In this document: piece by piece, positions 21,505 to 48,378 of the stretch | How positions within the stretch are numbered: position 1 is the first letter of the stretch | How the letters are laid out: each line of letters begins with the position of its first letter | Assembly: GCA_022264855.1 (NCBI GenBank) | Contig: JABYQU010000001.1 | Span: 992,001 to 1,056,000 of the forward strand | Length of the DNA: 64,000 nucleotides | From: Lenzites betulinus | Taxonomy: Eukaryota; Basidiomycota; Agaricomycetes; Polyporales; Polyporaceae | Direction of reading: 5' to 3' | The notes under the pieces: model-generated | What the model saw: only the letters and a program-made list of their open reading frames with translations | Told to the model about the DNA's origin: nothing | Databases searched by the model: none | Translations under genes and position numbers: made by a program

Positions 21505-24500
21505 TCATTGGTCCTTTACTCGCTCAATACCCACTAAAACCCCGTATTGTTCCACCCAGTTCAGTTGCGTGTCTCTTGGGAGGACTGGTGTCCACATCGC
21601 CCTCACTAGTTCTTTCCTCAGAGCTCTTTTCCCCAGGTGCTTTGCCGTCATATTCCTGTCCAGCGCTACCCGTCTATCCATCATCTTGTACCACCTGTTC
21701 GTGACTTCGTTTTCGCTGAACTCCCTGCCCTCTCTTTGTATCACTCGCTCGCATCTCAATTTCCATATCTCATACACTGCTTCCGTTATCATTGCCTTCC
21801 ACAGGTTCTCCGCCTCCGGTTTCCTGGCGTTTTCGTTGTCCCTAATCACTGCTGCCGGTGCGCCCATTATCACGCCCCACGTAAGTTCCGGCCACTCGTT
21901 CCTGGTCCTTCTCCACGTGCTTTCAACCAGCCTCCAGATTTCTCGTCTGCCTGTCTCTTCGCAGTCCAGTAGGATGTGCTCCATCGAGTCTAGCACTCCA
22001 CACTTCGCACAGGTTGCTCTCTCCTTGAGTTGGTCCGGCATCTTTTCTCTCAGCCAGTGTCTTCCCACCATGAAGGCGTCGTTCAACGCTTTCCACCAGA
22101 ACTGCCTGCATTCCTTGGTAATGTGCTTCCCTTTCAACGCTTCCCACACTGCCTGCGGCCTGAGCTTGACTCCGTATGCTCTTTCCACGTCTGCAGTTAT
22201 CTTTTCTATTGTCTCGCCTGTTGCTCTCCTTGGCTTTGTCTTCTTGTCTTTGATGGCCCTGATCGCTTTGTAGGCGAGCCTCTGCGAGAGTGCCTGGAGC
22301 TTCGCTCCTGTTATTCTCAGTTTTGGCGGTATTTCCAGCTCGATCGAGTCTCCGAACTCTTTCGTTGCTCCCATGCCCGCCAGTCTGTCTGCTTCTTCGT
22401 TTCCGCCTACCCCTGAGTGTCCTTTGACCCACTCTACTGCCGTCCACGCTCGCCTTGCTCTCATTTCCGCCACTGCCGCCCTGATCACTTCTTTGTTCTT
22501 GCACCTCAGGTATCCTTCGTCTTCCTGTGCTTTGACGTTTTTCGTCAGTGCATCCATTGTTGTTCTCGAGTCTGTTACTTGTATGAGGTTGTCGTTTTCT
22601 CCTACTTCTCTCGTTGCTAGTAGCATCGCTACCGCCTCTCCTACCTGGTTCGTCTGTTCTAGGTTCTCTGGTACTCTGACTGATCTCGACCTCGCCTCCT
22701 CGCCCTCCAGGTGGACGCCTGCCCCTGCTCTCGCGTCTCCGAAGCCATTTCTCTCGCACGCTCCGTCCGTGAATGCTTTGATCGTGCGTCCCCCCTCTTT
22801 TGTCCTTGTTTCCAGTTTTTCGTTGCACGCCCCTTCGCCTTCTGTGAAAATTCTGAATGTTTCCGCTATGGTTCCTCGCGTGGTTATCCTTCTGTCGAAG
22901 AGTGCCGCCCCTTCTAGGTATCTCGTCTCCTCCTCTGCGTCCCTCATTTCTTTGTCCTCGTAGTCCTCGGGGTGCTCGCCCCTCGGGTCCCACTTCTGAG
23001 GGAGCAGGTCCAGCATTTGTTTCGCTTTGGACCAGCACCTGTGTGGGTTACTGCAGGCTTGCTCCGTGATCGCGTGCTCGCAGCTTCGGCATGTGCATCT
23101 CTCGCTGGGCTTATGTTCTGCCCCTTCCAGTCTGTTCGCCAGGGTCTCGAAATCGCCGACCGTCTTGGCGCCGTGGTTCTTTATCAGGCACCTCGTTGCC
23201 CCCGATCTTCGTGTGAGTTTCTTCATTTCTTTCTCGTTCGTGTGGGCATGTCCCCACATCGGCATGTTTCTGAGTATGCTTCTTTCAAAAGCCAGCCCTT
23301 CTTGCCTCAGTCCGTATTTCCTTGCTACCGCCAGTATTGCCTTGAGGTCGCGCGGCAGTGCCGCGGCCTTCGGTGCCCAGTGCTGTAGGAATGTGTTCGT
23401 TCTCGCCTTTCCTTCGCGCGCGTTCTCCGTTTCGTTAACCACCCGTGCCATCAGGTCGTCCGCTACCCATGCCCACGTCGGCCTTTCCCTTCCTATGGCT
23501 AGGTAAGATTTCAGCCACATTACATCGATCGCCTCATTCCTCGCCTCTAGGTCTATCACTGCTAGTCCCCCTCTGTTCTGTGGCAGTAGTAGGTATTCCA
23601 TTGCCACCGGGATGTGCTTCCTGTCGTCCCACAGGTAGTCCCTGATCATTTTCGTAAACCTTTTTGTTACCACCTCCGGCATTCTTTGGACATCAGCCAG
23701 AAACTGCGTCATGCTCCCCACAATCATCTGCGCCACGTGCTTCTTCCCCCCCATCGTTGTGTGGCTCCTCTTCCATCTAGCCATCGCGTTGTTGACCTTC
23801 GCTAGCCTCGTCGTCCACACGTCCGCCTCCTCGACTCCGTTTCCCAGGTATGCCCCGAGTATTCTCACTGCGTCTCCCTCCTTCGCTAACTTCGCGCTGC
23901 TCGGGTAGTTCTTCCACTTCCCGGTGCTTTTGTGTTCCTCCGCCACTTCGTTCCTGTACCTCTTCGTGCCCACGGGTATCAGTTCCGTCTTGCCGATGTT
24001 AAACTTTGCTTTGGCCGCCGAGCACCACGTGTCTAGGACCGTTTGTAGGGTGCTGAAGTCGTCTCTCTCCCCTAGGTATACCGTGGTGTCGTCGGCGAAG
24101 AGCGTCGCCTTGAGTCTTTCCCACACGCCCGGGACCTCGAATCCCTCTATCTCCGAGCTCCGTATCATCTCCGACAGGGGCTCTATCGCCATATCAAAGA
24201 GCAGGCAGGAGAGCGGGTCACCCTGTCTGACTCCCCTATATATCTTGTACGTCCTGCTTGTTACTCCGTTCACTGCTACCGATGTGACGGCGTTCTCGTA
24301 CAGGGTCTTCACTGTCTTGATGAATACTTCTGGGATCCCGAACCCTTCCAGCACTCTCCACAGGTAATCGTGTGCGATTCTGTCGTACGCTTTTTCTTGG
24401 TCCAGCGCGACAATCATCCCATTCACCTCCTTTGCTTCTGCCCATGCCATCATCATCCTTGCTAGCTGTGTGTGGTCTTTCAGCCGCCTGCCCGGGACGA

Positions 24501-26844: not shown

Positions 26845-27277
26845 ATCCCGGCTGCCTCGGTTGACTATGCATTCCGGCCCTTGGCAGTCCGATTACCTGC
26901 CGTACGCCGTTAGCTTCAGCCTCTCGGCGCGGCACGTCATGGCCTCAATAGGCCGCCGCTTTCCGCTCACGCTATTGCTTTCCTGTCCCGCGTGCGGTCA
27001 GTGTGTTTGGGCTCATAGCGGGCCGCCCTCGCCTCGTCCCTTGGCCACCTCGGTCGTGGTTGCGGATTCAGCTCAGTTTCAGCTCTTCACAGTTCGGCCA
27101 GTTCTGCGCGTCATCGCCAAGAGATACGTGCCAAGATGCATGTCCGAGTTCGTAGATACAGCGTCCCCTACTGGGCGGGTAGTATGAGGGAGTCCGCGTC
27201 CTTCTACCTTTTACTCTCCTCGCTCCCCTTCTCTGCTTGCGCCCGGAGCTTGCGCTTTCGCGGGCCGCACCTTCCGC
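26845..27277 (-). other. LINE-1 spacer between ORF-B and ORF2
   Basis: A 433-bp non-coding interval on the element's sense strand. LINE-2 has a spacer of nearly the same length (about 423 bp) at the same place, which suggests it has a role, for example in starting ORF2 translation. Confidence 0.5.
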
Positions 27278-28497
27278 TCACATCGCCCATTCCCCGCCGG
27301 TTCCTCCCCAGGCCGCACCACGCCTTGCACCTCTCGCGCTGCCTCCACGCTGGCTGTGGCCTCCTCGCGGGTACACAAACTGGGTGTTGTTGTACTGTTG
27401 CTGGGATTGGTATTGCTGCGATCTCGGGGGCGGGCCTCCTCGCCCCAGCGCCGCGCTCTGGGCCCTCGTTTGTCCGCCCGCTCCGAAGCCAGCTCTCCCC
27501 CCCTTGCTGCTCCTCTCGCCACCGGGGCTTGTATCCAGTTCTGAGCCACTTCCGCTGGGTGGGTCGGCGCTCTCGGTCCCTGCCACGCTGCCAGGTGCGT
27601 GAACGGACAGTCTTCATACTCGTGGTCGACCCCATGACAGCCCGCGCATCTTGTCAGCGGCCTCGGTGCGCTCGTCGCTGTGCCTGTTATCTTGGCCGCC
27701 CTCAGCAGGCTTCTCCACTCGACCCACTTTGCGCTTGCCTCGGTCGGCGACTTCATGTAGATGTACGTTACGAGTACCTCTCCTAGGTCCTTCATGTCTT
27801 TGACCCGCGTGTTCGCTTTCAACGAGTTCACTATCTTCTTCACGACGTCCGTCTCCGAGGTCGTTCCGTTCCTGTACTTCGGGTTGTTCGAGATGTAGTC
27901 CATCATCCAATTGACGATCGGGGACTTCAGAAGTTGCGCTTTGATCGCAGCGGTTATCCTCGCGTTGTTCAGCTGGGTGAAGCCCGTCGTTGCCAAGAGA
28001 AATCTCGGGAGCTTCGGTTCTCCGTCGTGGAAGATCACCGTGATCGGGTTCGGGCCCCAGACTCTCTGTGATACGAGGAGCTTCGTGCCTAGCTCCGAGA
28101 TTCCTGTGATCGGCCAAGCTGTCGGCGCGTCCCAGTTCATCGCCTCGTTCGGCTTCTGCGCCGGCGGGTCCACCACGTACTCGTCCTGCTCAAGTCCTGT
28201 CACCTCCGACACGATGGTGCATATGCCCTTGGTTATCGCCAGGGCTTCTGCTGTCGTCACAGTGGCTTTGCCGAACACCTCAGCCATGCATCGCTGGCCT
28301 CTCGGCGTCCTGTCCCACGCTTCTCTAGTCTCCTGAGTCCATCCGCGGAAGGCTTCCGTCGGGTATTGCGCGTGGATCTTCGGGAAGCCGCCCTTCGGGG
28401 TCTCCATCACGCGCAGTCGTAGCTTTGCCGCCGCAAGGACTCTCTCCTCCTCGTTCGAGAGCTTCACTTCGTCGTCCTCCGAGTCCCACCAGATGTT

Positions 28498-28501
28498 GTA
28501 C
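28498..28501. repeat. 4-bp target duplication GTAC, left of the DNA element
   Basis: GTAC directly before the left terminal inverted repeat; the matching copy is 31017-31020. Collapsing the two copies restores the LINE-1 ORF-B frame. Confidence 0.88.
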
Positions 28502-29118
28502 CCAAATACTGTAACGAACCGTATAGCTCCCGTGACTGTTTTACATTACGAACCGTCGGGGTTCGTAATGTGTCACGAAGCTCCGGGCAGCGCTCCGGGA
28601 CCTGCCTTATTAGGCAGGCAGCCCCGGGCAGGCCTGTTATCTCCCCAGAGATAACAGGTCTGCCCAGATCTAACTGATTATATGCTTATCTCTTCAGATT
28701 GTGTCTTTTATCATATCTCCCGCGCCTCCTCCCGCCCCAATAGCCTCGGAAAGTGGGCGCTTATTTCTCGTTCTGGTGCGCACTTCCTCCTCCTTCCTCC
28801 CTCACTAGCTCACTCATTTCCCACTCTATCTGGCTCTATCTAGGCGCGTTCAGAAGACGTTTTCAAGGAGAATAATCGTATACAGGAATCAGGGCAGAAA
28901 GGTAAGTACTGATCATTTTTATACAGTGCTACTAGTGCGCTCCAAGCGACGCAAAACGAGCGATAGCTCGCTCGTTTCGCGTCGCGCGTCCGCGCGAAAG
29001 GGCTCCCTGGAATCGTGTGCTCCGCACGGTTCCAACGAGCCCTTGCGCGCGCGAATCGGCCGGAAAACGCCCGAGATATGTCTGCTCCTCCCCGGGAGCA
29101 GCATGTCTGAGCACACCT
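28502..29118. repeat. left 617-bp terminal inverted repeat
   Basis: Matches 30400-31016 in inverse orientation. It contains several smaller palindromes: 28543-28571 (12-bp arms ACATTACGAACC/GGTTCGTAATGT), about 28626-28666 around CCTGTTATCT/AGATAACAGG, about 28946-28985 (18-bp arms, one mismatch) and about 28998-29045 (AAGGGCTC...GAGCCCTT). Confidence 0.92.
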
Positions 29119-33529: not shown

Positions 33530-34107
33530 CTACTCCCCAATCATATTCTCCACCCATTCTCTGTCCGCGTCCGACGTGCTTGGCATCCCACAGGCTAGGC
33601 AGAGGGGGATCGTGACTGCTCCCCTACCCTCTTCCTCGTCCAGGACTGTTGCGTCGTACTCCAGGGGTGCCTTGTTCCCCTCATATCCTTCTTTCCTTGG
33701 CCCCCCTTTCAGCCTCCTCCATATCTTCCCCCACTTTCCCCTCCTCACTGTGACTCCCTCGATGTCTTCTACCCTTAGGACTGCCCTTGCGGCTGGGGTC
33801 AGCGCTCGTTCGTTCCACACCTCCAGTTCCACCATTCCTTCCCTCAGACCCTGCATCCTCGTCACTGCCCCTCAATCCCTGTCTCCTTTGCCAGGTACCT
33901 TCTCCCTCCTTCCTTCAGCTGCTCGTCCCCCCCCCCTTTGACCTCACACTCCTTGATTTCATATATGATGAGTTGTTGTCCCTGCGATATCGGCGTTCTT
34001 GGTGGTATGAGGATGTCATAGTACACCACCTGGGTTTCCACCTCCTGCTTCCCGCCCCTGATTGCTGGGTGGCCTTGTTTCTTGGCTAGTATTTTCTGTG
34101 GGGGCAT
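33530..34107 (-). pseudogene. LINE-1 ORF0: small leader protein with a frame break
   Basis: The first ORF after the LINE-1 leader, ATG at 34107. It matches ORF0 of LINE-2 in place and sequence: YYDILIPPRTPISQGQ here against WCDVMVVPETPIKIGQ there, and ETGIEG against ELGIEG. The frame breaks at a GGGG run near 33872; one added base would give an ungapped match to LINE-2 over the next about 35 residues (shared V..E..N..R..L.VE), so a one-base loss is the simplest reading. An 83-bp GT-AG interval in the same place is an alternative. I know no family for it. Confidence 0.7.
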
Positions 34108-34251
34108 CTGGGTATGTCTGGGTGGGCTGGGTTGGCTGGTCTCGTCCCAGGTCCCTGGTTCATTTTATATCTCTCTGAGGCGCCCATGCTTCCAATTCGC
34201 TTGCGATGAGAGCGCACCTTATGTGTTTCTCATTCTGCATCTCCTGTTCCC

Positions 34252-34258
34252 TTGTTGG

Positions 34259-34260
<2 letters not shown>
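34252..34260. repeat. target-site duplication of LINE-2, left copy
   Basis: TTGTTGGTC directly before the poly(T) of LINE-2; up to three further T could belong to it. The match is at 48370-48378. Confidence 0.75.
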
Positions 34261-34301
<41 letters not shown>

Positions 34302-34426
34302 GTGCACCCCGGTTTCTAGGCTGTTGCCCTCCACCAGGTGAGACAGGTTTGGGGGGATTGCACCCTCAGCACCTCGGGGGAAATGCTTTATGCACGCCTT
34401 AGCAGTGTGGGACTCCTTCAGGCAGG

Positions 34427-37400
34427 TCATCTTGTTCGATGCCTATTCCCGTCGTGAAGTGTACCCACTAAAACCCCCGCTGTCTTCGTCCAGTCTTCGG
34501 GTAGCGCCGCTTCATCGTGTATTGTCCCTCTCCATGTGTCCAGCACCGTACTTACCGGTAAGCGTCGCTTCTTCCACTTCGCCTTTGTCCGTTCCATGTC
34601 TAGCCTCAGGCGTTCGTTTATGATTTTGTACCACAGGTTAGTTATCTTTGCCGTCGAGTGCATCTTGCCTGGCTCATCCCATTGGATCACCCGTTCGCAT
34701 CTCAGTTTCCATACCAGATGCAGTGATTCGCTGAGGACAATTCTGAGTAGTCGAGTTTGCCCGGGGCAGCGGTCCCCGTTCACATCTTGGGTCTCGAGAG
34801 AGGGGGCTCCCAGAATTGCACCGAAGGTCATGCTGGGCAGTGTGACGCCCCTACGCTCTAGGAGGCGTAGGGCAAGGCCCCAGACAAGCTCTTGGCCTGG
34901 GGCGCTACATTCCTTCAGTATGTGGTACATTGTCTCTTCGACGTTGCACACAGGGCATATCGCGCGATTCTCGTAGCCGGGGATGTTTTTCCAATATTCT
35001 CTGACACGGTACGCGTCGTGCATCATCTTCCAGAAGAAGACCGAGGTTTTTACTGCGATTTCTTTTCCCCAGACGTTGCTCCATATTCTCGAGCATCCCA
35101 GGTTGAGCGCAAAGTCATCGTTCAGTGCCTCCTTGATCATGCTCACCGCGCACTCCGTTCGGCGGCGCAGGGGGGCATTTTTCCATTGCAGAATGGATTC
35201 ATAAGCAAATTTCTGGGATATTCCTGCTAGTTTCGCGCCAGGCAGGAGGAATTTACGGTCGTTTTGTCCTAGGGGGGGCAGTTGCACAGGGTTCATTGCC
35301 GCACCCGCTGCCGCCAGCTCATCTGCGCCTTCATTTCCTTCAATTCCGGAATGTCCCTTGACCCACTTCAGGTACGTTGCCGCTCCTCTCTGTCTCAGCT
35401 TCGCCACCACCCTCCTGAGGATGTCGCTATTGGCGACGTTGGCCCATCCTCTGTTCTCCCATCCCTCCAGTTGGACTGTTAGGCCACGGTAGACGTACAT
35501 CGAGTCTGTGATTATTGTGAGGGGCACGAAGTCAGGCGTACTGTTTGCTGCTAAGAGGCAGGCATAGGCTTCGCCTGCTTGGTTTGTCTGCGACAGGCCC
35601 GGCACTCTCGCGGCGGTGTTACGGGGGTCGTCTTGGCCGAACCATACCCCTGCTCCAGCCTGTGCTGATTCGTATCCGTTTTTTAGACATGATCCATCGG
35701 TGTAGGCGTCTACCGCCTCCTCTGGTATCTGGAAGGGCCTGTTCTGCCGACGGGCGCGTAGCCCCTCGACGTCTCCGCTCCTGGCAAAGACCCGAAAGGC
35801 CGAACCGATTGGAGCATGCTGTGTAACAGACGGGTCGAAGGTTACTGTTTCTCCGTCTTTAGCTGCGACGCGGTTTGCATCTCTCTGTACTTTTGTGAGG
35901 CTGAGGCCGTCGCTGATTTCTTGTGGCCTTGGCCTCCACTTCTCCTTTAGCTTACTCAGGATTGCCGCAGCTGCTTTGGCGCAGCGCGCTGGGTTGTCGC
36001 ATCCCAGGGATTCCCGGTCATGGGTGCATTGCATGCAGGGGCAGTCCTTCCGCTCTCTGTGTTGGTCCGCCGCCGTAGGTTTCCTCAGCACGCTCAGGCA
36101 GTCCCCTACGGTGTGTACCTCGTGGTTCTCTCTAAGGCATGTTCCTGACTTCGAGTTTGCGGTGCTGCGCTGCTCCACTAGAGCGAAGTGGTACCACACT
36201 GGGAGGGTTTCCAGTAGGTCCGTCCCCGGGGATTGTGAGTCCAGCCGTACTCCGTATTTGCGAGCCACTTTGATCATTCTGGCTAGGTCTCTCGGCAGCC
36301 CCGAGGACACTGCTGTGTTGACTCCCCATGACTGCAGAAAGGTGTTGATTCTCGCTGTGTCGCTCACTCTTCTCATTGGGGCCAGGATTGCTTTCGCTAT
36401 CAGTGAGTCCGCGATGAGGGCCCATTTCGGTCTCGTTTCGGATATGTCTAGGTAGGCTTTCAACCACATCAGGTCAATCGCTTCGTTTCTTGCGGCGATG
36501 TTTAGTGTCTTCAGTCCGCCTTCGCTCATTCTGCGTTCTGTAGAGTCGGCAGCGACTTGGGCGCGGGGGGCGCACCACAGGAATCTGGTAGCGAGTTTGC
36601 CAAGGCTGTCCTCAACCGCCTTCGGCATTCCTTGCACACGCGCCAGGTATTGCGTTCTGCTTCCTAGTTCGAGGTTTAGCACCACCTGTCGACCTTTAAG
36701 TGTCGGTCTGCGTTTGTGCCATCGTTCGAGGTTTCGCTCAATGGTCGCGACAACTTTAACCCATGGCGTTGCATCATCATATGCGGGTCCTATCCACGCT
36801 CCAAGTATTCTCGTTCCTTCGCCTTCTTCAAGGATTCTCACACCGCTTGGCAGTAGCGGGCCGTCACGGCGCATCCGTCTTTCCCTGCGCATGCGCTCTC
36901 TCGATTCTCTCGGTCCCACTGGAATGAGCACGGTTTTAGGTTCGTTGAATTTCGCCCTCGCAGCGCTACACCACTCGTCTAGGGTCCTCGTCATGTCTTC
37001 GTATTCGTCTGTGTCTCGGAGGAAAACCGTCGTGTCGTCGGCGAACATTGTTGTGACTATCCTTTCGTGCAGGCCAGCCACTTCAAATCCTTTTAGCGCG
37101 GATGCCCTCAGCGCACATGCCAGAGGTTCGATTGCAATGTTGAAGAGGAGGCATGATAGTGGGTCACCCTGTCTGACGCCTCTCGTGATCACGAAAGCCG
37201 GGCTCATAACACCGTTTAGCATTACTGCGCTCTTCGCCCCTTCGTACAGGCGCATTACCAGTCCGATGAAACTTTCGGGGAAGTTCATCTTCCTCAACAC
37301 GCTCCATAGGTAGGTGTGATTTATTCTGTCGTAGGCTTTTTCTTGGTCCAGTGCCACGATCACCCCCTCAATTTTCTCCGCCTCAGCGTGCGCCATGAGA

Positions 37401-39535
37401 AGTCGGGTCATTTTTACGTTGTCGTGGATTTTACGTCCGCTGATGAAGCCCGCCTGGTCGGGGTGGATCAGGGAGGTCGCGACGGCGGACAGTCGCACTG
37501 CTAGGGCTTTCGTGAGTATTTTGTAGTCGGAGTTTAGGACCGTTATCGGTCGGTAGTTGTTGATTTCTCTTATGTCGCCTTTTAGCTTGTATATGGGGCA
37601 AATCCATCCTTCTGCGAGGTCAAGGTTCCCATCGATGCCGTTTGTTGCAACGTTGTTGAATACCATCGCCAGCATTCTCGAGACATTGAAGCCCGGTCGC
37701 TGTGCCTTACTGTCGCTCGCCCATCTTCTCTCCAGGGCCTGCCACAGTTCAGCAGACAGGCCATCTATGCCTGCCGCTTTACTAGGTGCCGCCTCTAGCA
37801 GGGCTAATCTCACCTCATTCTCGGTGATTTTCCTCGCCATTCCGTTCTTTTGCCGTGAGGTCAGGGACGCGGTCGTTTTGTTCAGGGCGTTGCGGATCGC
37901 ATCCTGGTATTGTTCCGAGGTTACGTCTACATCGTCCGTCTGTATCTCATCATAGTGTTCTTTCGCCAGTTTTGCCATGTCATCCGATCTTGTTGCAACC
38001 GTCCGGTGCCCGAGCGCATCGGACCTCCGTAGTTCGAAGAGCGGGTCTCTTCGGGTTTTCTCTTTGCCTTGGCCTATCCAGTAGCGTGTTACTCTCTCGC
38101 CCTCCAGCCATTGTTTCGTTCTTAGGTCGTCACGTCTGTCCTCAAATCGTCTCTCCTCGGTCCTTGCTAGTTCGTTGCGCAGGAGCTCCACCGTCTCCCC
38201 GCGTGCCAGGTCGTGCTCGGTGCCATTTCCACAGTCCTCCGTCAGTTTGTTAATTTTTGTTTTTAGGTCCCGGATCTTCCTGTCCCATTTAGCAAAGAGT
38301 TCCTTTGCTCGCCTCCGCGCAATGCATTTCATTTCCGACTTGAAGGTGCGGTATACGTCCTGTATGCTTCTAGTCTCGGTCCGCGTTGCGGAGTGCGCCA
38401 TTTCTTCCAGAGCTTTTATGCCATTTGCAACTACGGCATTAAGGAAGGGCGCATCCGATAGTACTGCTCTCGGGACCACCCAGCGTCCTTGTCCTATGAA
38501 TGGTGCAGCGTAGTTTGCGAGGGTCATGGATACTAGGGAATGGTCGGTGCGTATTCCGGTCACTTCCATCTTCCAATCTGCAGCTCGGCTCGCTAATTCC
38601 TCGCGTACGTATATTCTGTCTATTCTTGATTGGCTGCCGGTTCCCGGTTGGAAGAAGGAGAATCCCTTCTTGCTACCCATCTCTCTGCGCCATCCGTCAA
38701 CGACATTTAACTTTGCTGTTAGTTTTGCGAGGCAACTTCTGGCTCCAACTGGGTCCGGCCTTGAAGGCTGTCGGTCCTCCGGGGCTTCTACCATGTTGAA
38801 GTCCCCCAGAAGGATGTCCGGGCGGCGCCTCCCTTCCGTTGTGTCATCTTCCAGCTCGCTCCAGAAGTTCGCGTTATCGTTCATGTTGTTCGGTGCGTAC
38901 ACGTTTGTGATTGTCAGGGTATTATTCACTCCCCACTTTAGTGTCCCTTCGATCACTCTCCCGGGGATGGGACTTCGGCATACTAGCCCATGGTTTGGCC
39001 CCAGAGCTCGTTTGCTCACCACGAGGGCTACCCCGCGCGCTCCGGTGGGTGAGGCCGGGTCCGGAGACGTGAAGACCTCTATGGAGTCGCTGAACAGCTC
39101 ATTTAGCCTGCCGGCTCCATCCTGTGTAAGGTGCGTTTCCTGCAGTGCCAGTATTCCGATGTGATTCTCTTTCATTAGTTGGTTTATTCTTAGCCATTTT
39201 TCGCCTGTGCCTCCTATCGTCGGCCCACCTGCACCCCTCATGTTGAGCGATGCTATCTTAAGTCTGCCCTTCGTCTTCCGGTAGCCTTTGTCTCTTGCCT
39301 GCGTCGTGTCCTGTCGCCCGTCTCCCAGTCGGGGGGTTTGGGCACGCGGGGTCCCGGTTCCCGGCACGTCGTGGCATTGGTCGCGGGAGCGGGTCAGGGG
39401 AGGGCCAGCCTCCCCTTCTCCGTTCGCTCGTTCTGGTGTTTGTTCGGTGAACGCTCTTCGGCCTGCCGCGGCGGTGTAGCTTCCGTGTTCACCAGTCCGG
39501 TCATCGGGGAAGGGCGCAGCTACACTAGGGTCCAC
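34427..39535 (-). CDS. LINE-2 ORF2: endonuclease, reverse transcriptase, RNase H
   Basis: About 1700 residues without interruption. Endonuclease: IASLNMRGAG, ILALQETHL, LLGDFNMVEAP, SRIDRIYV, RTDHSLVSM. Reverse transcriptase: NYRPITVLNSDYKILTKAL, AGFISGRK, VALDQEKAYDRI, GVRQGDPLSCLLF, and FADDTTVF at about residue 831. A cysteine cluster CPCMQCTHD...CDNPARC precedes RNase H (from about 1277: YTDGSCLKNG, ITDSMYVY, KGHSGIEGNEGAD). A terminal knuckle CPVCNVEETMYHILKEC and GVLVG follow. Catalytic residues are all present. The frame is open back to a stop at 39647-39649, yet the first in-frame ATG falls inside the endonuclease motif SLNMRG. The true start therefore needs a spliced leader exon or a non-AUG codon; 39535 is a GTG. 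Confidence 0.92.
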   Translation of the reverse strand: MDPSVAAPFPDDRTGEHGSYTAAAGRRAFTEQTPERANGEGEAGPPLTRSRDQCHDVPGTGTPRAQTPRLGDGRQDTTQARDKGYRKTKGRLKIASLNMRGAGGPTIGGTGEKWLRINQLMKENHIGILALQETHLTQDGAGRLNELFSDSIEVFTSPDPASPTGARGVALVVSKRALGPNHGLVCRSPIPGRVIEGTLKWGVNNTLTITNVYAPNNMNDNANFWSELEDDTTEGRRRPDILLGDFNMVEAPEDRQPSRPDPVGARSCLAKLTAKLNVVDGWRREMGSKKGFSFFQPGTGSQSRIDRIYVREELASRAADWKMEVTGIRTDHSLVSMTLANYAAPFIGQGRWVVPRAVLSDAPFLNAVVANGIKALEEMAHSATRTETRSIQDVYRTFKSEMKCIARRRAKELFAKWDRKIRDLKTKINKLTEDCGNGTEHDLARGETVELLRNELARTEERRFEDRRDDLRTKQWLEGERVTRYWIGQGKEKTRRDPLFELRRSDALGHRTVATRSDDMAKLAKEHYDEIQTDDVDVTSEQYQDAIRNALNKTTASLTSRQKNGMARKITENEVRLALLEAAPSKAAGIDGLSAELWQALERRWASDSKAQRPGFNVSRMLAMVFNNVATNGIDGNLDLAEGWICPIYKLKGDIREINNYRPITVLNSDYKILTKALAVRLSAVATSLIHPDQAGFISGRKIHDNVKMTRLLMAHAEAEKIEGVIVALDQEKAYDRINHTYLWSVLRKMNFPESFIGLVMRLYEGAKSAVMLNGVMSPAFVITRGVRQGDPLSCLLFNIAIEPLACALRASALKGFEVAGLHERIVTTMFADDTTVFLRDTDEYEDMTRTLDEWCSAARAKFNEPKTVLIPVGPRESRERMRRERRMRRDGPLLPSGVRILEEGEGTRILGAWIGPAYDDATPWVKVVATIERNLERWHKRRPTLKGRQVVLNLELGSRTQYLARVQGMPKAVEDSLGKLATRFLWCAPRAQVAADSTERRMSEGGLKTLNIAARNEAIDLMWLKAYLDISETRPKWALIADSLIAKAILAPMRRVSDTARINTFLQSWGVNTAVSSGLPRDLARMIKVARKYGVRLDSQSPGTDLLETLPVWYHFALVEQRSTANSKSGTCLRENHEVHTVGDCLSVLRKPTAADQHRERKDCPCMQCTHDRESLGCDNPARCAKAAAAILSKLKEKWRPRPQEISDGLSLTKVQRDANRVAAKDGETVTFDPSVTQHAPIGSAFRVFARSGDVEGLRARRQNRPFQIPEEAVDAYTDGSCLKNGYESAQAGAGVWFGQDDPRNTAARVPGLSQTNQAGEAYACLLAANSTPDFVPLTIITDSMYVYRGLTVQLEGWENRGWANVANSDILRRVVAKLRQRGAATYLKWVKGHSGIEGNEGADELAAAGAAMNPVQLPPLGQNDRKFLLPGAKLAGISQKFAYESILQWKNAPLRRRTECAVSMIKEALNDDFALNLGCSRIWSNVWGKEIAVKTSVFFWKMMHDAYRVREYWKNIPGYENRAICPVCNVEETMYHILKECSAPGQELVWGLALRLLERRGVTLPSMTFGAILGAPSLETQDVNGDRCPGQTRLLRIVLSESLHLVWKLRCERVIQWDEPGKMHSTAKITNLWYKIINERLRLDMERTKAKWKKRRLPVSTVLDTWRGTIHDEAALPEDWTKTAGVLVGTLHDGNRHRTR

Positions 39536-39958
39536 CCCTCCCGGGCTGGTGAGGCGCAGGTGACCGTTTGTGTTGTTGTGGGCGTCCGTGTTTATTTGTC
39601 TGGGTGGGTTGGGGCTGGTAGCTGGTTTAGTCGACGAGAGGTACAGCTATAACTCTCATACGCTGCTTGGCCGGCAGCTCGGCGTGGCGATGTGGGTTTG
39701 GTCGTTCAGCTGACTTAGTCCACTTAAGCTTCTCAGCGCGGCTAGCCACCAGCCTAAATAGGCTTCCGCTTGTGTTGTTTGGGGGGTGGGGGGGGTGGAG
39801 TGGATCCTGGCGGCTTTCCTGCACCCTTGGGTCAGTATATTTGGGCACGCCAGGGTGGCCGATCTCACACAGGCTATCTGAGTCACGCGTGGAGATGTTA
39901 TTGCAGAGGGGGGTGGAGTAGGTGTGTAACATGTATTAGGTATTCGTGCGTCAGCCAA
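39536..39958 (-). other. LINE-2 spacer between ORF-B and ORF2
   Basis: Non-coding on the sense strand, apart from the upstream open part of the ORF2 frame (to 39646). CGACTAAACCAG at about 39622-39633 (read on the minus strand) looks like a branch site plus 3' splice site that could supply ORF2 with a 5' exon. This is a candidate only. Confidence 0.45.
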
Positions 39959-42162
39959 CTATCCCTGTGAATACTGGTTGCGTGCCGGCGTGGCCGCCCG
40001 CGTTGTCCTATACGGCGCTATGCCTCGTCCTCTTCCGCGAGGGGCGGTGTTCGTCTGCGGCGCGTAGTTGTGGGTTGGTACGCCAAGGCCTTGGTTTTGC
40101 TGGTGGCGGGGTCTGCCGTATGTTCGGGAGATGGCCGGCGGGGCGCACCAGCCTTGGATGCTGGGGAAGGGGCACTTATGGGTCACATGGTCCGCGCTGT
40201 GGCATCCGGCACAGAGTTCGATGCGTCGAGCCATGGCGGTCGGGTTGTATCTGCTGTGAAATGGCATCTTCATGAGATTCGCCCTCCAGATCTTCCACGA
40301 CTCCCCGCATCCGGTCGGCGAGTCACAGAAAACAGCCGCTTGCATGTTCCCGTTCCCTAGCTGGTCGATCCGGACTTCTACGCTGGCCGCTATTCTTTGC
40401 GCCGCTTCGTGCGGCGCCAGGTGTTGTAGCCCGGGGTGGCTCTGGACGAGGTCTGCTAGTGACGAGAAGATCGGCTCATCCAGGAAAGCTCCTCTGATCG
40501 ATAGTACGATGTCGTTTTCATGGTTTGTGGTGTATCCTCCGAGTGTGAAGAGATAGCGGGGGATGACGAGTCTCCTGTCGTAGAAGAAGAGGGTAACCCA
40601 GACGCACGATAGGACTCTTTTCTTTACTAGGTCGGCGACGGTGGGTTTGCGTAGGCCTAGGATTGTCCACGTCTTCGGGGCGCCAGCTCTCTTCGGGGCC
40701 TGTGTCCATTCGGCCTGCGGGGCGATCGGCACGAAGTCTGTTTCTCCCGTAACGTGCTTGATCAGTTCGTAGATCTCGTCGTGTAGAGGCTTGCGGAGTG
40801 GGACGTCCGGCAGGCCCATGTTCGCGACTTGTACGAAGAGGACCGCGCCCTCCGGCTGTTTCCACGCTTCGTCTATCCGGGACACCGCGAGATCTTCGAT
40901 TAGTCCTTCTGGGTGTGCATGGTGTATAGCAGGGAAGCCTCCTTCGGGCTCAGGGGTGAAGCCGTAGCCATCCGCACCAGGCGTGGGTGGTGTGATGTGC
41001 GGCGCCGGTCCTTCCGTTACCGCTGACTGCCATGGGGCTCGGCGGAGGTCCGGGTGCGCAGGTGAGGGGAGAGCGAGGAACGAGGGGAGGACTTCGACTT
41101 GCGCGTTCGGTGGGCTTACGGCCTCCACTGCCATATCTACGTCCATGCTCGCGATCAGGCTTCTCCATGGCGTACCCCCGGTATCCGCGGACGCGTTCGG
41201 CTGGTACTGGTGGTTGCTGTTGCTCTGCCACCCTTCGGGCTTCTTTCCTTTGGCCGTGCTCGGGATTCGGGGCGGGGAGTCGTCGGCTGAGGGCACCCCT
41301 TCCGTTGAGATTCCCAGGCTGCTTACAGGGTGTGAGGGGAGTGGGGACGGGGAGTCATCTCGCCTTGTGAGAGCCCTCCTTGTGTCGGGGCGCGGGTTCG
41401 GCAGTGCGACGTTCGCTGCGCGCGGCCGGTGCTTTCTGAAGCGGACCGATATCTGCGTTCGTGGTTCGTTCGCTGGGGGGGAGCCGCTGGTCCGCGGCCT
41501 CTTCTTTGCCCTGGACTCCTCCCGCTTTTCTTCCTGCCCGGGTATTGTGTCCCCGTAGCGGTCGACTCCGTCCGTTATGAAGTTTTCGAGGTCTACTCCG
41601 TCGGATATGACGGTGTCGCCGATCACGTCAGCCACGATGTCCGAAGCGACGCTGTCGTTTCCGTGGACTGAGAGGTTTCTCCAGTCTTCGGAGTTCGGTG
41701 TCCCGTATCTTCTCTCCTCCACGAGGCTTGCTTCGAAGGCCTCCATGTCCATGTCGTCAAAGTGGTATTCCGAGGCCGGAGGCGTGGAGATGGTCGGTCC
41801 ATTGCTAGGCGCGGCGCGGGGTTGCTCGTTGATGGTGCTGGGGCCGGGTGTAGCGACATGGGGGGGCCGTGCGCTCTAGAATTCAGTCTGTTCTTGTTAG
41901 GAGCCTGGGTCGGAGACAGGGTCAGCTTGCATGGGGAAGTGTTCCTGACATGAGTCCTCACAGGTGCGCTCGCGTTGGTGGAGGGGTAAGGGGTAGCGAC
42001 GTGGGGCGCCTGCGGGGCAGGGAGGGCCGTCCCTCTTTGTTTAGGCGTGGTCGGCGGGCTTGCGGCGACTTGCGCGTAAGTTCTCTGCGGCGATACGTCG
42101 TGCGATGGCGGCGCAGTGGTGGTGAGGAGCGGTGCGTTCTCAAGGCGTTTAGCAGAAGGCAT
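39959..42162 (-). CDS. LINE-2 ORF-B: gag-like CCHC protein, two exons
   Basis: ATG at 42162. Exon 1 (42162-41962) is joined to exon 2 (41875-39959) by removing an 86-bp GT-AG intron (41876-41961) that contains a CTAAC branch site 20 nt before its AG; the result is 705 residues. The N-terminus is Pro/Thr/Ala-rich. The central part holds DDMDMEAFEASL, then a gag-like domain (VTGETDF, APKTWTILGL, LSCVWVTLFFYD, IPRYLFTLGGYT). CAGCHSADHVTHKC (about 40150-40200) is a C-x2-C-x4-H-x4-C knuckle, followed by an RGRGRG-containing tail. It matches ORF-B of LINE-1 and ORF-A of LINE-2. Expected role: binding element RNA in the transposition particle. Confidence 0.85.
41876..41961 (-). other. spliceosomal-type intron in LINE-2 ORF-B
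   Basis: 86 bp, donor GTGAGG, branch CTCCTAAC, acceptor TTCTAG. Its removal switches the frame exactly as the two exons require. Retention leads to a frame that loses the gag-like domain. Confidence 0.75.
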
Positions 42163-42443
42163 TGTTCAGAGCGTGTTGGTGGGTGGCCGTGCTAGGACGG
42201 GTTCGTGAGGGTTTTGAGGTGTTTCCTCAGAGGGGTCTAGGCATCTGTTCGGATGGTGATCTTCTGCAGCGGTCGTAGCCGCCGTACTCACAGGCCTCTG
42301 GGGCATCGTCGTTGGTGGCTTCTTCGATCCGCGTGGAGGATGGGCGTTCCTTACTTATGACAGTTCACGCCTGCCCGCTGTCGCTTGCTGTTGTTGTATC
42401 ATTCATCGCAGACAGTGTCTCAGTACTACATACATGTCGTCGG

Positions 42444-44425
42444 TTAGGTCCTCGGCCCCGGCACCGCTGCTATGTCATGTCTCCTTTTCGCGCGGACCCT
42501 CTTTTTGGGCTCCTTAGCCGGTATAGCCTTCCCCATCCAACCAGGGATGTCCGTTTTGTTGTAGGGGCATAGGTGGGTGGTATGGTCTACGCCATGGCAC
42601 AGTTTGCAGCGGCTCCCCGCCCGAATGGGCCCGTCGGCGAAGGGGAAGGTCAGCTCCGAGAGTTCGTTTCTCCATCTGTCCCATATCATTGCGTCGAGCG
42701 TGGGTGGGTCGCAGTAGATCCGTGCGACGGCTCCGCCCGCTGTTCTGTACCTTGTTCCTCCCATTTCTATCACGCTAACCCTGATTGAGTGCGCGACGAG
42801 CGCGGCCCCATCCAAGGGTGACTTGAAGCGCGGCGTCCTGTCCGCTGCGATCGCCTTGTAGCTCGCTTGGAATCCATCGCCGTACAGCATAATCGGGAGG
42901 ATCGCCGCGCGGATGACGTTTTCCTCCTTCGTGTTAAGGTTGAGGACCGCGAACAGGTATCTCGGCGGGGTGGGGTACCTCGGCACCATTCTAAAGGTCG
43001 CTAGATTGGTGTCCCAGAACTGGTTTTGGAAGAGCGTGTAGTAGGAGCGGGGTGACATGTTCCACAGGATCCAGGTCGTCGGCGGGTCCCAGCAAGCGCC
43101 GTCGCGTGACGGCTCGGGGTGTTCTACACGTACGTCGGTCTCTCCGGTGATGATGGCTATGGCGCTTCTCACACGCGGGAGTATTTCGTTCATACGCTCC
43201 TCCGTTAGCGGGCCTTGGCCATACAGGTCGATCATGCAGGCAGTGTAGGGCGGCAGGCTGTCGAAGGCCTCTAGCTTCTGCGGGGAGATATAGCGTGTGT
43301 GGTCGTCCGGGTCATTCATCTGGAACTCCAGGGCTGGGTCGTCGACGGGGACGTTCGTGACTCGCAGTAGGCCTGTCCTTGTTAAGAAGTGGGCGCGTGT
43401 CTCGCGCCGCGGGAGGTTCCAGTATTCCTCGGACGTGGGATGTGCGTCGGCCTTGTCATATCGGTGTTAGGGTGTATGTTTGGCAAAGGTCGCGAGGGAC
43501 GTACTGGTATAGGTATTTCCTCTCCACCGCTTATCCTTCCGTTCGGGCGTGCGGCCCACCCGCTAGCACCGTCGCCCGGCGTGGTAGAGTCTTCGTAGGT
43601 CATTTCACTCGTCGTCCGTGCGTCGTGGGCATCGCTCAGGGAGTTGGAAAGGTATATTGGTTCGTGGCAGTCACGTTCTAGCGTAAGTGCTGGCTGCGCC
43701 GATTCCGTTTCGAGGTGCGCGTGCGTTTGCTCTTCGTTGAGGAGCGCGTTCTGGGGCGTCGTCTGGTATGTAGCCGCATGATTTGGGTGCGCGGTACTCA
43801 CCCCGCCGGACGGCAGAGTGTGGTCGCCTGCGTGCAGCTCATTCGAGGATCTAGTGCCGCCGTTCTCATGGGGGGTGTCTAGGTATACTCCATTTCTTGC
43901 TAGGATCGCCAGACCGGCTTGCACGATTTGCGCTAGGCGGTGGAGGTTGGGGCTCGAGATGTGTCTTCCTGGGCTCGCGACGTTTACAGCTGCTTCGAGC
44001 GTGTGCGCGCCCGGGTCACTTGAGGATCCTTCTACTGTATCCCGTGTCCTGTCGTCAGGTCGCGGTGTTGTTGCTGCTAATTCTTCGCGTTCACTCTCCT
44101 CTGAGTTGGGTGGCTAGCTCGGGTTGGGTCGGCCGGTTGGGCATTAGCGTCGACACCGTTAATTTTTAGTACTCACGAGGGCCCATTGTGGTTCGGGGCT
44201 TCCTATTGCCATCAAAAGTCCTTCCCAGTCCCGCCTACAGTCCGATCGACCCGTCCCTCGTGCTTCACTTGAGCGTGTCTGTAGCGTTTCGCAGATCGAA
44301 GGGGGAAAAGGTGCCAGAGGCGTCTGGGAGCATGTCGCGTACTCGCAGGTAGTGCACCACGCTTTGTCGAGCTCAGTTTCATCCGTTGTCGTGCACGGCT
44401 GCCAGAGGGTGTGGTCTAGAGACAT
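42444..44425 (-). CDS. LINE-2 ORF-A: second gag-like CCHC protein, three exons
   Basis: ATG at 44425 (MSLDHTLWQPC). Exons 44425-44177, 44113-43505 and 43451-42444 give 621 residues; each is a whole number of codons. Exon 1 has a small cysteine group (CTTCEYATC). Exon 2 is disordered apart from HRLAQIVQAGLAILARNGVYLD. Exon 3 has TSEEYWNLPRRETRAHFLTR, then the gag-like domain (ITGETDVRVEHPEPS, PTTWILWNM, PPRYLFAVLNL) and CKLCHGVDHTTHLC, a C-x2-C-x4-H-x4-C knuckle, then a Lys/Arg-rich end. The domain and knuckle match ORF-B just downstream, so LINE-2 carries two tandem gag-like genes. Without splicing, stops close the frame in both introns. Confidence 0.83.
43452..43504 (-). other. spliceosomal-type intron 2 in LINE-2 ORF-A
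   Basis: 53 bp, donor GTACGT, branch CCCTAAC, acceptor ACAAG. Its removal joins EEIPIP to ADAHPTSEEYWN in frame. Confidence 0.75.
44114..44176 (-). other. spliceosomal-type intron 1 in LINE-2 ORF-A
   Basis: 63 bp, donor GTGAGT, branch-like GCTAATG, acceptor GCTAG. The length is a multiple of three, but in-frame TAA and TAG codons inside it close the frame if it is kept. Confidence 0.75.
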
Positions 44426-45506
44426 AGCGTAGCGGTGGTGACAGCCTGCAGAGGTGGGGGTGGATGGGCCGACTATCGTCTTGGCCGACAGTTCGGCCCC
44501 GCCGCCGCCGGCGTTGGGCCATTGCTCGGTATCGCGCTGGCCTCGTTGCGCTCGAGGACGTCCTTGGATGTGGGCTTGACCGTTTTGCTCACTCCGGTCG
44601 GCGGCCCAGCAGTCTGATTGCGGATGTTTGTGCCCTTTGTTTGTGTACCTCTGAGGTTATTGTAATTCGGTATTACCATCTAGTCTATCTGTCCTATTGT
44701 TACTTTCTAGTTGTGTTTTACACTTGCTTATCGCCATTATTGTTTATCTACTAGTGTTCTGGCTCGAGTTAGAGACTCTGGGCTAGTCAGGGTACGTGAT
44801 ACTATGCGGCGTGTGCTTGATTCGTCTTATTTCTGCTGACTTCCTGTTGTCCGTGGTTCATTCCCGAGTTTGTGGCTTCGGTCACTTCTGATCGTCTGGC
44901 AGTGATGTTGCGTTCCACATTCATCGGTGTCGCATCGCTCGTTGTACAGGTCAGTGGTTCCGTTCTTCGCGCCTCGACTCGATCCGGTCTAATAGTTGTG
45001 GTTATTGTACATTTTGTTCCTTTAGTTAGGCGCTTTGTTTTCCGCTCGGTAGTTTTCGTCTTGTGTTGTCGAGGTTCTGTGCTGGTTCGCAGTGGCCAGC
45101 TCTCACGGTGAGGGTGCGATGATTCGCGCAGCAGGTATTTGTGTCGTTGTACCGGGAGTCAGGTTGCGCTTACACGTCCGTGTTCGTTCGTTCAGGTACA
45201 CCTTCGCACACTCCTCATGTCTTTCTCGGTGAGTGTGTTAAAGTCATTTTGCTGGCGAGTGGGGGCTCACTTGCTTCTCACGCTCGTCCGTTATCGTCCG
45301 GTGTCTTTGGTGTGACTTTAGTGTTGTTCAATCATGCGTTACTGATTCGGTCGGTTGTGCAGGCCTCTGATGTTATCGCTCTCGGCCCGTAGGCATCGGT
45401 CACGGGTCATTTCTCGTCTGATGGGCTGGTGAGTGCGGGTGCTTAATTTCCATTTGTTCGATCTCGCTACAGTGTCCTCAACCTCTTCTTCCTTTCCATC
45501 CGCCTC
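44426..45506 (-). other. LINE-2 spacer between ORF0 and ORF-A
   Basis: About 1.1 kb, rich in T and G on the plus strand. I see no supported coding sequence and no insertion in it. Confidence 0.5.
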
Positions 45507-45974
45507 CTAGATCAGCCCGTCCCATCCTCGTATGGCCGGAATTCTGCGGGTGACCCGTCCTAGTGCAGATGCGAGGAGGTGGGCGATGCCGTTCCAGCTG
45601 TCCAAGAGTATGGTTTCTCCAGGTGCGTATTCCACCGTGAGGTAGACCCGCTCCGTCATCGATCTTCTTGTGTCGTTTTCGACGATGAACTCAACTATCT
45701 CCTTCTCCATAGTCCGGATCCCCACCACCTCTCCTTCGATGCCTAGTTCTCTCGTTTCGATGTCCTCCGGGTCGGCGTCCTCTCCTGGGCTCTCGTCTAG
45801 TCCGGCGATCTCCACCAGGCATACCCTCTGCCCGATTTTAATCGGTGTTTCCGGCACGACCATCACATCGCACCAGGTTATGTGTTTCCAGATGAAGCTT
45901 TGTGGGTTGTAGGTAGGGGCAGTTCCCCTTACTTTGACGTGTAAGGTGTTGACGTAGTGGTCAGGTTGGCTCAT
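45507..45974 (-). CDS. LINE-2 ORF0: small leader protein
   Basis: 155 residues from ATG 45974, uninterrupted, in the same position as ORF0 of LINE-1. The core ITWCDVMVVPETPIKIGQRV..VEI matches LINE-1 VVYYDILIPPRTPISQGQQ...YEI, followed by an acidic stretch, ELGIEGEVVGIRTMEKEIVE and YLTVEYAPGE. It looks like a small beta-rich domain with alternating hydrophobic residues. I know no named family. Conservation between two diverged elements implies it is translated and needed. Confidence 0.75.
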   Translation of the reverse strand: MSQPDHYVNTLHVKVRGTAPTYNPQSFIWKHITWCDVMVVPETPIKIGQRVCLVEIAGLDESPGEDADPEDIETRELGIEGEVVGIRTMEKEIVEFIVENDTRRSMTERVYLTVEYAPGETILLDSWNGIAHLLASALGRVTRRIPAIRGWDGLI

Positions 45975-48369
45975 AGTGGTGGTGTGTGTGGTATGTGTTG
46001 TGGTGGTTGGGTGGGGGAGTGCTTCTCGTTTGGTTTCAGGTATTTATATATCCACCGGTCAGTCAGTCATGGGACTTACGCGCGCGCGTAGGTTCTTGTT
46101 TTCATTTAACCTCTGTGAGGTTGGAGCCTGGGTTATCTTGTTTGGTTCATTCTCCAGTAAGTCCTTTGCTGGGCTTGGGCATGTTGCTTATGCACACTTA
46201 CACGTTGCGTTTTTGTAGATGTTGGTTCTATTTGGTTTTTTATGTGCTCTGCTTATGCTTCAGGTTTTAAAAATGCCTGTGCCTGTATAGTGCAATTCAG
46301 AAATTTTTATGTTTTACTGGTTGGGCTTTGTTGCAGTGAGTGTACATTGTCAGCGACATACAGTCTGCCTCTTCTTCCCCCAGTGGGTTGTATGGCATAT
46401 TGTCTGTGGTGTGTTCATGGATGTTTGGTGTTCAGACATGTTTTGTTTTGGTGTGTGTTTGTATCACTATGAGTTGGATTATCGTTTCAGTATTCCTTGG
46501 CATGGTTGACCATTGTTCTGCTGTCAGGTTCCTTTGTGTGTTCATGGGATGTTTGGAGTTCAGTGGTTCTGGTGTGTGCTTATGTCTCTGTAGGTTTATC
46601 ATTTTTGTGGTTTAGCAGTAATTCGCTTCAGTTGGGTCTATTCCATGCCTGTGCCAGTTCATCAGCTGCCAGTATTCCTTGCATGATTGACCATAGTTCT
46701 GTTGTCTGGTTCCTTTGCTTCCCATCCTCTAATTCGCTTCCGTTTGGGGTTATTTGTTGACTTCTTATGCAGTATCAGTGGTGTGGTGTCAGACGTTAGA
46801 TGTCAGTTGGCCCATGTGTTCATCTAGCCGACGTACTTAGAGTGGGTGTCTTAGCTTTGTTGTGACTGGCTTGACTATTGCCTGGGGGTTCCCAGTTAGT
46901 ACAGGGGCCAGGGTATGCATGACAGTTTTAGCATTTCCTACAGCCGATTGAATTCTGGCAGGGTCAGGGTTGTTTCTTTCTTGGCGTGTGTCAATATTGT
47001 GATCCATGGGCATGTTGTTGTGTTGGGTTCTATTTTTTGGGTTGCACGGGGTCCAGGGTTTGCTGGTTCGTCAACTGGTACGATATTTGATGCCATATCT
47101 ATATCGTCTATTCGTAGTGTTATCCATCAGGTAGGTGTGGGTGTGTAGCGATTTCGCGGCCTACGTTGGTGGCCACTCCGCTCTCGTTTCCGGGATCGTG
47201 TTCTCGTGTTGTACTCATGTTATCGTATGGGTTACATTTGTTTCATTTTCTCCATTATTGTGCACGTGAGCTCCGGTTCGTCCTATCCGCTAGCCCTGAT
47301 TATGTTGCTGTGTTCGCTGCGATTTGGCTGGGACAGGTCACCTGGTTCACGTGACGGGGCGTCTATGGGCTTGAGGTGTGTTCGCTGGGTGATCGTCCGT
47401 TCCTTTGTTTTATTCTTTAGAGGGTACTCTGGCTCCGGTAGCATGGGCGCGACTTCGCCGTCGCTGGGTTTGGTGGATCGTGGAGACTGCGGCGTGTTTG
47501 TACCCAGTGTGTCATCGCTTCGTTTTGTTGTTGCTCGTCTTATCTTATTCGTTCTGGTACAATCTTGTTTAGGCGCCCGTGCGACATGCGTACGTCTGCA
47601 GCGGCTAGGGGGTCTTGGTAGCTTTTTGCTGCACTCGCAGCGGGGATGTGGTCACTCGTTTGCGTGGTTACCAGCTCGTGGTACAGATGGGGAATCAAGG
47701 TGTTGGCAAGGCGGGGTTCTGGACTTCGAGGAGTCTCCGCCCTACTATAGAGCTCCTCTGCTGTCGTAACAGCGTGTGGGGATGCTTGGCTACGCTCGCC
47801 TCCGGAGTCCACTTTCCCTCTCACTTCATCGTACTTCTAGTCACGATGCGGCTGCTAGTGCTGTTAGCCATGTCAGGCATGCCCCTACTGAGAGCTTATC
47901 TTCGTTGTGCGTAGCCTCCTCTCTGAGTTCGCTGGGTACTTATCTTATCTTATCAGTTTAGGCGCCCGTAGCTTGCCACGTCGTCTCTCCTGAGAGTCGT
48001 GGCCTCGGACAGCGCGTAGCTTTGTTTTGGGTGGTGGGTTCTCTTACGGGTATGGAATTGTTTTCTTCTCCCCTAGGGGTCCTCCGAGGAGGTAGCTCCG
48101 AGGAGCTGCGAGCAGTGGTTCTATGGCTATCCGCGGTGCTTACCGGTGGTTCGTCTTCCGTGGCACCTCACTTACTTCTCGATTGCGTGTCGACCTTTGT
48201 CTTATTCGAGTACTTGCCCTTCGTCGTGTGTTGGTTTCCTTATGTTGTGTGGCTTTTTAATGGATACATTCGTCAGGATATGGCTCCCGCGATGCCCCCA
48301 CGGCGAGCTGGCTCAGGCTCGGACCGTGGGAAGGTGCGACCAGATGGTGGTGCGTGGAAGAGGAGCTCT
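45975..48369 (-). other. LINE-2 5' leader
   Basis: 2.4 kb, T/G-rich on the plus strand. The 5' end carries ACCACCATCTG at base 19 and TTCCCACG at base 38, the offsets seen in LINE-1. Open frames on the plus strand are hydrophobic artefacts of the T/G bias. The leader contains the diverged repeats at 46411-46757. Confidence 0.6.
46411..46757. repeat. diverged tandem repeats in the LINE-2 leader
   Basis: GTGTTCATGG(G)ATGTTTGG occurs near 46412 and 46539. CAGTATTCCTTG..ATG.TTGACCAT.GTTCTG occurs near 46489 and 46671, and AATTCGCTTC.GTT.GG near 46620 and 46731. Units of about 110-185 bp appear repeated with drift. They may be promoter units of the element. Confidence 0.65.
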
Positions 48370-48378
48370 TTGTTGGTC
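48370..48378. repeat. target-site duplication of LINE-2, right copy
   Basis: TTGTTGGTC followed by TTT, matching 34252-34260. Placing the LINE-2 5' end here puts its conserved 5' motifs at the same distance from the end as in LINE-1. Confidence 0.75.

Follow-up and report, generated by a model that had tools for sequence, protein, structure and literature searches.

In a stretch of 64,000 nt from the 37.4-Mb genome of Lenzites betulinus (Polyporales; contig 1, 992001-1056000; hereafter the window), we analyzed LINE-2, a non-long terminal repeat retrotransposon (long interspersed nuclear element, LINE) with two gag-like genes, ORF-A and ORF-B (ORF, open reading frame). These genes contain three short segments which are very probably real spliceosomal introns, and two of the three are conserved in related elements of the same genome. 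Comparison of the copies indicates that the RNA from which new insertions were made was nearly always unspliced. Taken together, the sequences make it highly probable that spliced mRNA yields the Gag proteins and unspliced full-length RNA acts as the template, spliced RNA being copied only on rare occasions.

Candidate introns in the focal copy

All features of LINE-2 given here lie on the minus strand, and positions are those of the window unless a contig is named. The first-pass annotation of this DNA had proposed that ORF-A is interrupted by introns of 63 and 53 nt and ORF-B by one of 86 nt. All three segments were recovered: ORF-A intron 1 at 44114-44176 (63 nt, GTGAGT..CTAG), ORF-A intron 2 at 43452-43504 (53 nt, GTACGT..ACAAG) and the ORF-B intron, or intron 3, at 41876-41961 (86 nt, GTGAGG..TCTAG), each in phase 0. 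Cutting them out gives frames of 621 residues for ORF-A and 705 for ORF-B, as had been predicted; if the segments are kept, translation ends after 88 residues in ORF-A and after 179 in ORF-B. ORF-A consists of exon 1 (44177-44425), exon 2 (43505-44113) and exon 3 (42444-43451). ORF-B consists of exon 1 (41962-42162), which carries the motif TYAQVAASPP, and exon 2 (39959-41875). Exon 3 of ORF-A and exon 2 of ORF-B each hold a gag-like domain together with a motif which we take to be a CCHC knuckle; no Pfam domain was found in the exon parts of the two genes that were scanned.

Intron ends in the relatives were found by means of anchors on each side and enumeration of the GT-AG segments that join the frames, with a splice score set by hand from the basidiomycete consensus. 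Homology-driven spliced alignment, run with a flat penalty and then with the hand-set splice score, misplaced intron ends in low-complexity linkers and was dropped.

The ORF-B intron is conserved among relatives

For the ORF-B intron, TYAQVAASPP served as the anchor in exon 1 and SEYHFD or EDWRNLS as the anchor in exon 2. Both anchors were found in 11 of the 12 loci with two gag genes that were scanned (C32 was the exception), and in ten of these 11 they cannot be joined unless sequence is removed, the frame being continuous in C41. The best candidate is in phase 0 in nine of the 11 loci, namely the focal copy, C65a, C19, C35, C28, C65b, C30, C16 and C70, where it is 44-86 nt long and begins 117-144 nt past the exon-1 anchor. 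The best frame-joining GT-AG candidate was then compared with dinucleotide shuffles in 18 loci; C32, C27, C31 and C67 were not included, as none of them offered a usable join. Each of the ten two-gag loci needing a join gave a p value between 0.0025 and 0.0224 (Fisher 3e-12), and no intron signal was seen in the continuous frame of C41 (p 0.12). Moreover, GT-AG ranked first of all 256 dinucleotide pairs over 15 loci (without C41, C1:172k and C56), with a mean score of 15.7 as compared to 13.2 for the next pair. The segment has the donor and branch consensus as well as the GT-AG ends of U2-type introns, and the same junction is used in the depositors' proteins of four elements (focal, C65a, C30 and C19).

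Both anchors were also present in nine of 11 further loci, and C21, C25, C56 and C50 passed the shuffle test (p 0.0025-0.02). Phase 0 was found in 15 of 16 loci needing a join, or in 14 of 15 when C56 is omitted. C25 and C56 are 97-99.5% identical; the idea that they form a recent pair was dropped, as the C56 locus begins at contig base 1 and the intron region is not the same in both.

A number of results weigh against an intron shared by the whole group. In C1:2.01M the best ORF-B candidate is in phase 1, at 100 nt, and therefore not all loci hold the same intron. C35 and C16 have tied acceptors, the further loci C31 and C67 had no anchors, and C27 and C32 yielded no intron candidate in the scan of further loci. 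C18 (p 0.08) and C53 (p 0.14) each fail the shuffle test when taken alone. The protein that the depositors predicted for C25, P0005, begins downstream and uses no such intron.

The two introns of ORF-A differ in conservation

For intron 1, eight of 12 entries (C70 was entered twice) had the exon-2 motif. The best candidate is in phase 0, has a GTRNGT donor and lies 138-213 nt before this motif in seven of the eight loci. On the opposing side, C1:2.01M lacks intron 1: its frame stays open as far as a Met that lies 160 codons upstream, and the best candidate scores 1. When dinucleotide pairs were ranked over the other seven loci, GT donors dominated, with GT-CC first and GT-AG second of 256, so that the acceptor is less certain than the well-supported donor. 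In our reading, the depositors' protein P0001 keeps the intron 1 donor but places the acceptor about 79 nt further (about 44035).

Intron 2 is the weakest of the three segments (splice score 13). At its place C35 and C16 read through, and C65a and C19 carry phase-1 candidates elsewhere; P0001 shares the junction of the focal reading. Intron 2 may be recent, or it may be a lesion of the focal copy that is bridged by chance. The expectation that other copies would keep the introns at the same sites with conserved splice signals was thus borne out in phase and signals for the ORF-B intron and, with a less certain acceptor, for ORF-A intron 1, but failed for ORF-A intron 2.

The depositors' proteins are themselves predictions. 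In P0001, which is 99% identical to ORF-B, the two genes ORF-A and ORF-B are fused, and we think that both P0001 and P0002 miss stretches which seem to be coding. For ORF-A, no protein match at E <= 0.001 was obtained among the 7998 candidates scored.

The frames could also be broken for a reason that involves no intron at all, namely independent indels and stops in decayed gag copies, with short GT-AG stretches that happen to bridge the frames in a GC-rich low-complexity linker. The gag N-termini are indeed low-complexity linkers with poor alignment, the ten two-gag loci needing a join offer 4 to 17 frame-joining GT-AG candidates each, and the absence of focal intron 2 from C35 and C16 would be expected. 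However, such decay does not fit the agreement of nine loci in site and phase, the shuffle values, the first rank of GT-AG or the concurring depositors' proteins of four elements, and it is also contradicted by the exact intron-free junction and the protein constraint described below. We therefore regard it as improbable. Still less credible is programmed frameshifting or truncation, by which two Gag forms would be made from one unspliced RNA. Unspliced RNA does give short products of 88 and 179 residues, but intron length modulo 3 differs among the copies, and the whole segment is exactly missing in C1:172k.

Introns pass through retrotransposition

The relative C65a (contig 65) is inserted within ORF-A of another relative, C65b. 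It has AAGGCTTGAAGCCT on both sides as a direct repeat of 12-14 nt, the right copy following the poly(A), and from these flanking repeats C65a spans about 203246-217281 (14.0 kb). Its target site AAGGCTTGAAGCCT at C65:203232-203245 is almost palindromic. Between the repeats, C65a holds three intron candidates, two of them in ORF-A and the third in ORF-B, which argues that the copied RNA was normally unspliced. The first-pass annotation had deduced an unspliced template from the focal copy, and this idea gains from the conservation of introns between copies and from their presence inside an insertion with repeats and poly(A). Furthermore, a 53-nt intron is shared by C18 and C65:648k, two copies with 99.3% identity across the whole 5601 nt that were compared. 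These two could be separate insertions or a duplication.

The ratio of nonsynonymous to synonymous change (dN/dS) was 0.17-0.21 in five comparisons between elements, with synonymous differences of 0.63-0.70. Constraint on the protein at such synonymous divergence argues that the introns have been kept for long. The near-identical pair C18/C65:648k points the other way, with a dN/dS of 0.68 based on few changes.

Real introns might also have been kept via an antisense template, one model suggested for Penelope-like elements (PMC3846280), or through spread at the DNA level. Retention would then need no splicing control, and a segmental duplication would account for C18 and C65:648k. We consider this route unlikely, because the focal copy and C65a have a sense-strand 3' poly(A) beside the duplication, which fits target-primed copying of sense RNA and argues against an antisense template, and because C1:172k is exactly without the intron, as would follow if spliced sense RNA had been copied.

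In C18 and C53, a candidate of 53 nt follows GAG. At the same place C1:172k reads GCTGAGGAACTCGAATAT with nothing between; its exact intron-free junction reads GAGGAACTCGA, where C18 and C53 hold the 53 nt. Consistent with this, C1:172k gave no intron signal in the shuffle test (p 0.26). A gag tree was built from 32 chosen rows of a longer match list. This tree pairs C1:172k with C53 as sister copies (95/84), and C18 falls in the same clade (100/99); the ten rows of ORF-A group together, as do the five of ORF-B. Since C1:172k is nested among intron-bearing copies, loss in C1:172k is the simpler reading. Copies with continuous frames had been named beforehand as evidence against the introns, and they do occur: the gag N-terminal intron is missing from C41 and C1:172k, and intron 1 from C1:2.01M. 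For C1:172k, the exact junction and the intron-bearing kin support the intron instead.

It is possible, though we hold this view only tentatively, that the introns license or raise expression and that inefficient splicing leaves some RNA unspliced, with no dedicated separation of genome and message. Such a role is compatible with the explanation favored here. Cryptococcus mRNA is described to fall on intron removal (PMC3744415), and PMC8770142 names in its title the silencing of intronless mobile elements by HUSH. By eye, the intron interior is little conserved between C18 and C53, as a role of this kind would allow. However, this intron is not strictly needed, since the gag frames of C41 and C1:172k are open in its absence; C37 may be another such case, with a gag frame of 809 aa.

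We return to the favored proposal of a spliced message and an unspliced template. LINE-2 belongs to a group of large LINEs with an APE endonuclease whose gag-like genes very probably carry ordinary, very short spliceosomal introns. In the cell these would be removed from the mRNA that is translated into the Gag proteins. The template for target-primed reverse transcription would nearly always be the unspliced full-length transcript, so that new copies inherit the introns. Now and then spliced RNA would be copied, leaving an exact intron-free copy, and C1:172k may have arisen by this route. A model with two coexisting RNA pools, one spliced and one unspliced, is plausible.

Extent and organization of LINE-2

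LINE-2 occupies 34261-48369. Its 5' end (48368 or 48369) was placed by homology to C65a and its 3' end by the poly(A) tail of 38 A (34261-34298). Outside the element, the 9-bp direct repeat GACCAACAA was found as a target-site duplication, with the upstream copy at 48370-48378 and the downstream copy, after the poly(A), at 34252-34260. GACCAACAA abuts LINE-2 at exactly the 5' end that homology predicts, the first base of C65a corresponding to 48368. From the homology-set 5' end, the flanking repeats and the tail, LINE-2 is therefore about 14.1 kb long. It is bigger than the earlier reading had it and includes ORF0, followed by ORF-A, ORF-B and an ORF for endonuclease (EN), reverse transcriptase (RT) and RNase H.

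ORF0 (45507-45974) encodes 155 aa and has a homologue within C65a. It has no Pfam match, and 25 matches were counted genome-wide, its own copy included. A frame resembling ORF0 was spotted by eye near 33530-34180.

The RT ORF (EN-RT-RNase H-zf-RVT; 34427-39646) contains Exo_endo_phos (PF03372), RVT_1 (PF00078), RNase_H (PF00075) and zf-RVT (PF13966), all above the Pfam cut-offs. With an APE endonuclease and an RT in one ORF, a 3' poly(A) and a target-site duplication, LINE-2 is an APE-type LINE. Relatives within the same genome mostly have 65-70% DNA identity to one another over most of the RT region. Another element of the EN-RT-RNase H kind, LINE-1, lies in the window at 21505-28545 (minus strand); its gag frame of 444 aa is distant kin of ORF-A and ORF-B. 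Two matches of equal score, C65:961599-962699 and C65:993508-994608, lie 32 kb apart in opposite orientation and may reflect a duplication, an inverted repeat or an effect of the assembly.

Putative signals for expression

The 5' terminal block of LINE-2 (47886-48368) shares 90.6% of 487 aligned positions with C65a and is thus far better conserved than the coding DNA of the element. Genome-wide, about 100 nt of the 5' end are found at 16 places and a longer piece of about 480 nt at five, counting the focal copy. There was no Rfam match for the 5' end, which folds somewhat better than its shuffles (z -2.0; 7 of 200). Its conservation suggests a promoter or RNA signal. Further inside, TATATAA at 46044-46050 is the sole match to TATA[AT]A on the sense strand of LINE-2 and stands 76 nt before the ATG of ORF0. 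C65a has two such matches in the 3.4 kb scanned, and one of these precedes the ATG of its ORF0 by 64 nt.

Between ORF-B and the RT ORF, a block at 39721-39768 is probably structured, as judged from an alignment of its 48 nt in 14 elements in which all 11 proposed pairs are formed. The block also occurs in LINE-1 (26911-26958, minus strand). In two pairs both partners have changed, from G-C to A-U in three rows and from C-G to U-A in two. The number of doubly changed cells was reached by none of 500 shuffles; two such pairs were reached by 89 of 500, and therefore the covariation is modest. Folded alone, the focal region did no better than its shuffles (z -0.65), and the first hairpin is absent from its minimum-energy structure; nor did the focal block have an Rfam match. 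The hairpin pattern had 26 matches in the genome and none when read backwards. Judged by their positions, 25 of these 26 places directly follow gag matches (the exception is in C45); the versions of the focal copy, C30 and C65a do not match the pattern exactly.

Upstream of the EN motif, the RT ORF has no ATG after the preceding stop (39235-39646) in the focal copy, C30 and C65b; C65a has one. This suggests non-AUG or internal initiation, and a natural guess is that the block before the ORF is a structured element for RT translation. A fourth intron that would provide an ATG was not accepted, with a best score of 13 at 142 nt in the focal copy and no candidate in C30.

These features allow a more speculative extension, to which we give limited credence, in which labor is divided between the RNAs of LINE-2. 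The unspliced RNA with the conserved 5' end would be both the genome and the mRNA of the RT, translated without an AUG behind the structured block. Spliced RNAs, possibly from the internal TATA promoter, would make the two Gag proteins. The introns would then mark message as opposed to genome and would have been kept long enough for synonymous sites to come near saturation. Such a division would be retrovirus-like but reversed. In retroviruses one locus gives rise to unspliced genome RNA and spliced mRNAs, and Gag is made from the unspliced RNA, whereas the gag-like genes of LINE-2 would need splicing.

Relation to known elements and significance

Fungal LINEs of the APE type, such as those of the Tad, Deceiver and Inkcap clades, share with LINE-2 the APE endonuclease, RT and RNase H, gag-like upstream ORFs with CCHC, the poly(A) and the target-site duplications. 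LINE-2 differs from them in its two gag paralogues and ORF0, its 14 kb, the conserved gag introns and an RT ORF without ATG behind a conserved block. The named RT relatives, among the 120 of 738 matches listed, are from mushroom-forming fungi such as Trametes and Pleurotus.

As regards intron retention, PMC3846280 sets Penelope elements against all other retrotransposon types. Penelope-like elements resemble the LINE-2 group in being retroelements that keep spliceosomal introns. According to the same paper they have a GIY-YIG endonuclease and pLTRs, whereas LINE-2 has an APE-type endonuclease and a poly(A); membership of LINE-2 among them was ruled out, since its endonuclease is Exo_endo_phos and not GIY-YIG. 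For human L1, PMC5860796 describes copies of spliced RNA (SpIREs) as generally dead ends and splicing as inhibitory to the element. C1:172k, which is exactly without the intron that its sister copies carry, resembles SpIREs in its junction, which is that expected of a copy from spliced LINE RNA. In contrast to L1, which splicing harms, LINE-2 has its introns within the gag genes themselves, and the full protein is predicted to come from the spliced form. Spliced LINE transcripts are likewise described in PMC5537684 for HeT-A of Drosophila telomeres; these are conserved but antisense and not on the coding strand as in LINE-2. In Cryptococcus, RNAi targets inefficiently spliced, intron-containing transcripts of DNA transposons, as stated in PMC7175516. 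Among the titles and abstract openings listed in searches of an open-licence library, which lacks most subscription papers, none described conserved introns in the gag genes of LINEs, and introns in LINE ORFs are likewise absent from the passages considered of PMC12810828, PMC7998251 and PMC12477816.

A retrotransposon that is copied from RNA should lack introns, and this expectation is used to recognize retrocopies. In a LINE lineage with conserved introns, the template would escape splicing as a rule, and the choice between message and genome RNA would become testable in a fungus. C18 and C53 with the intron and C1:172k without it form a natural set in which the frequency of copying from spliced RNA can be studied. 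Moreover, intact elements can go unnoticed when gene predictors fuse or trim genes of this kind.

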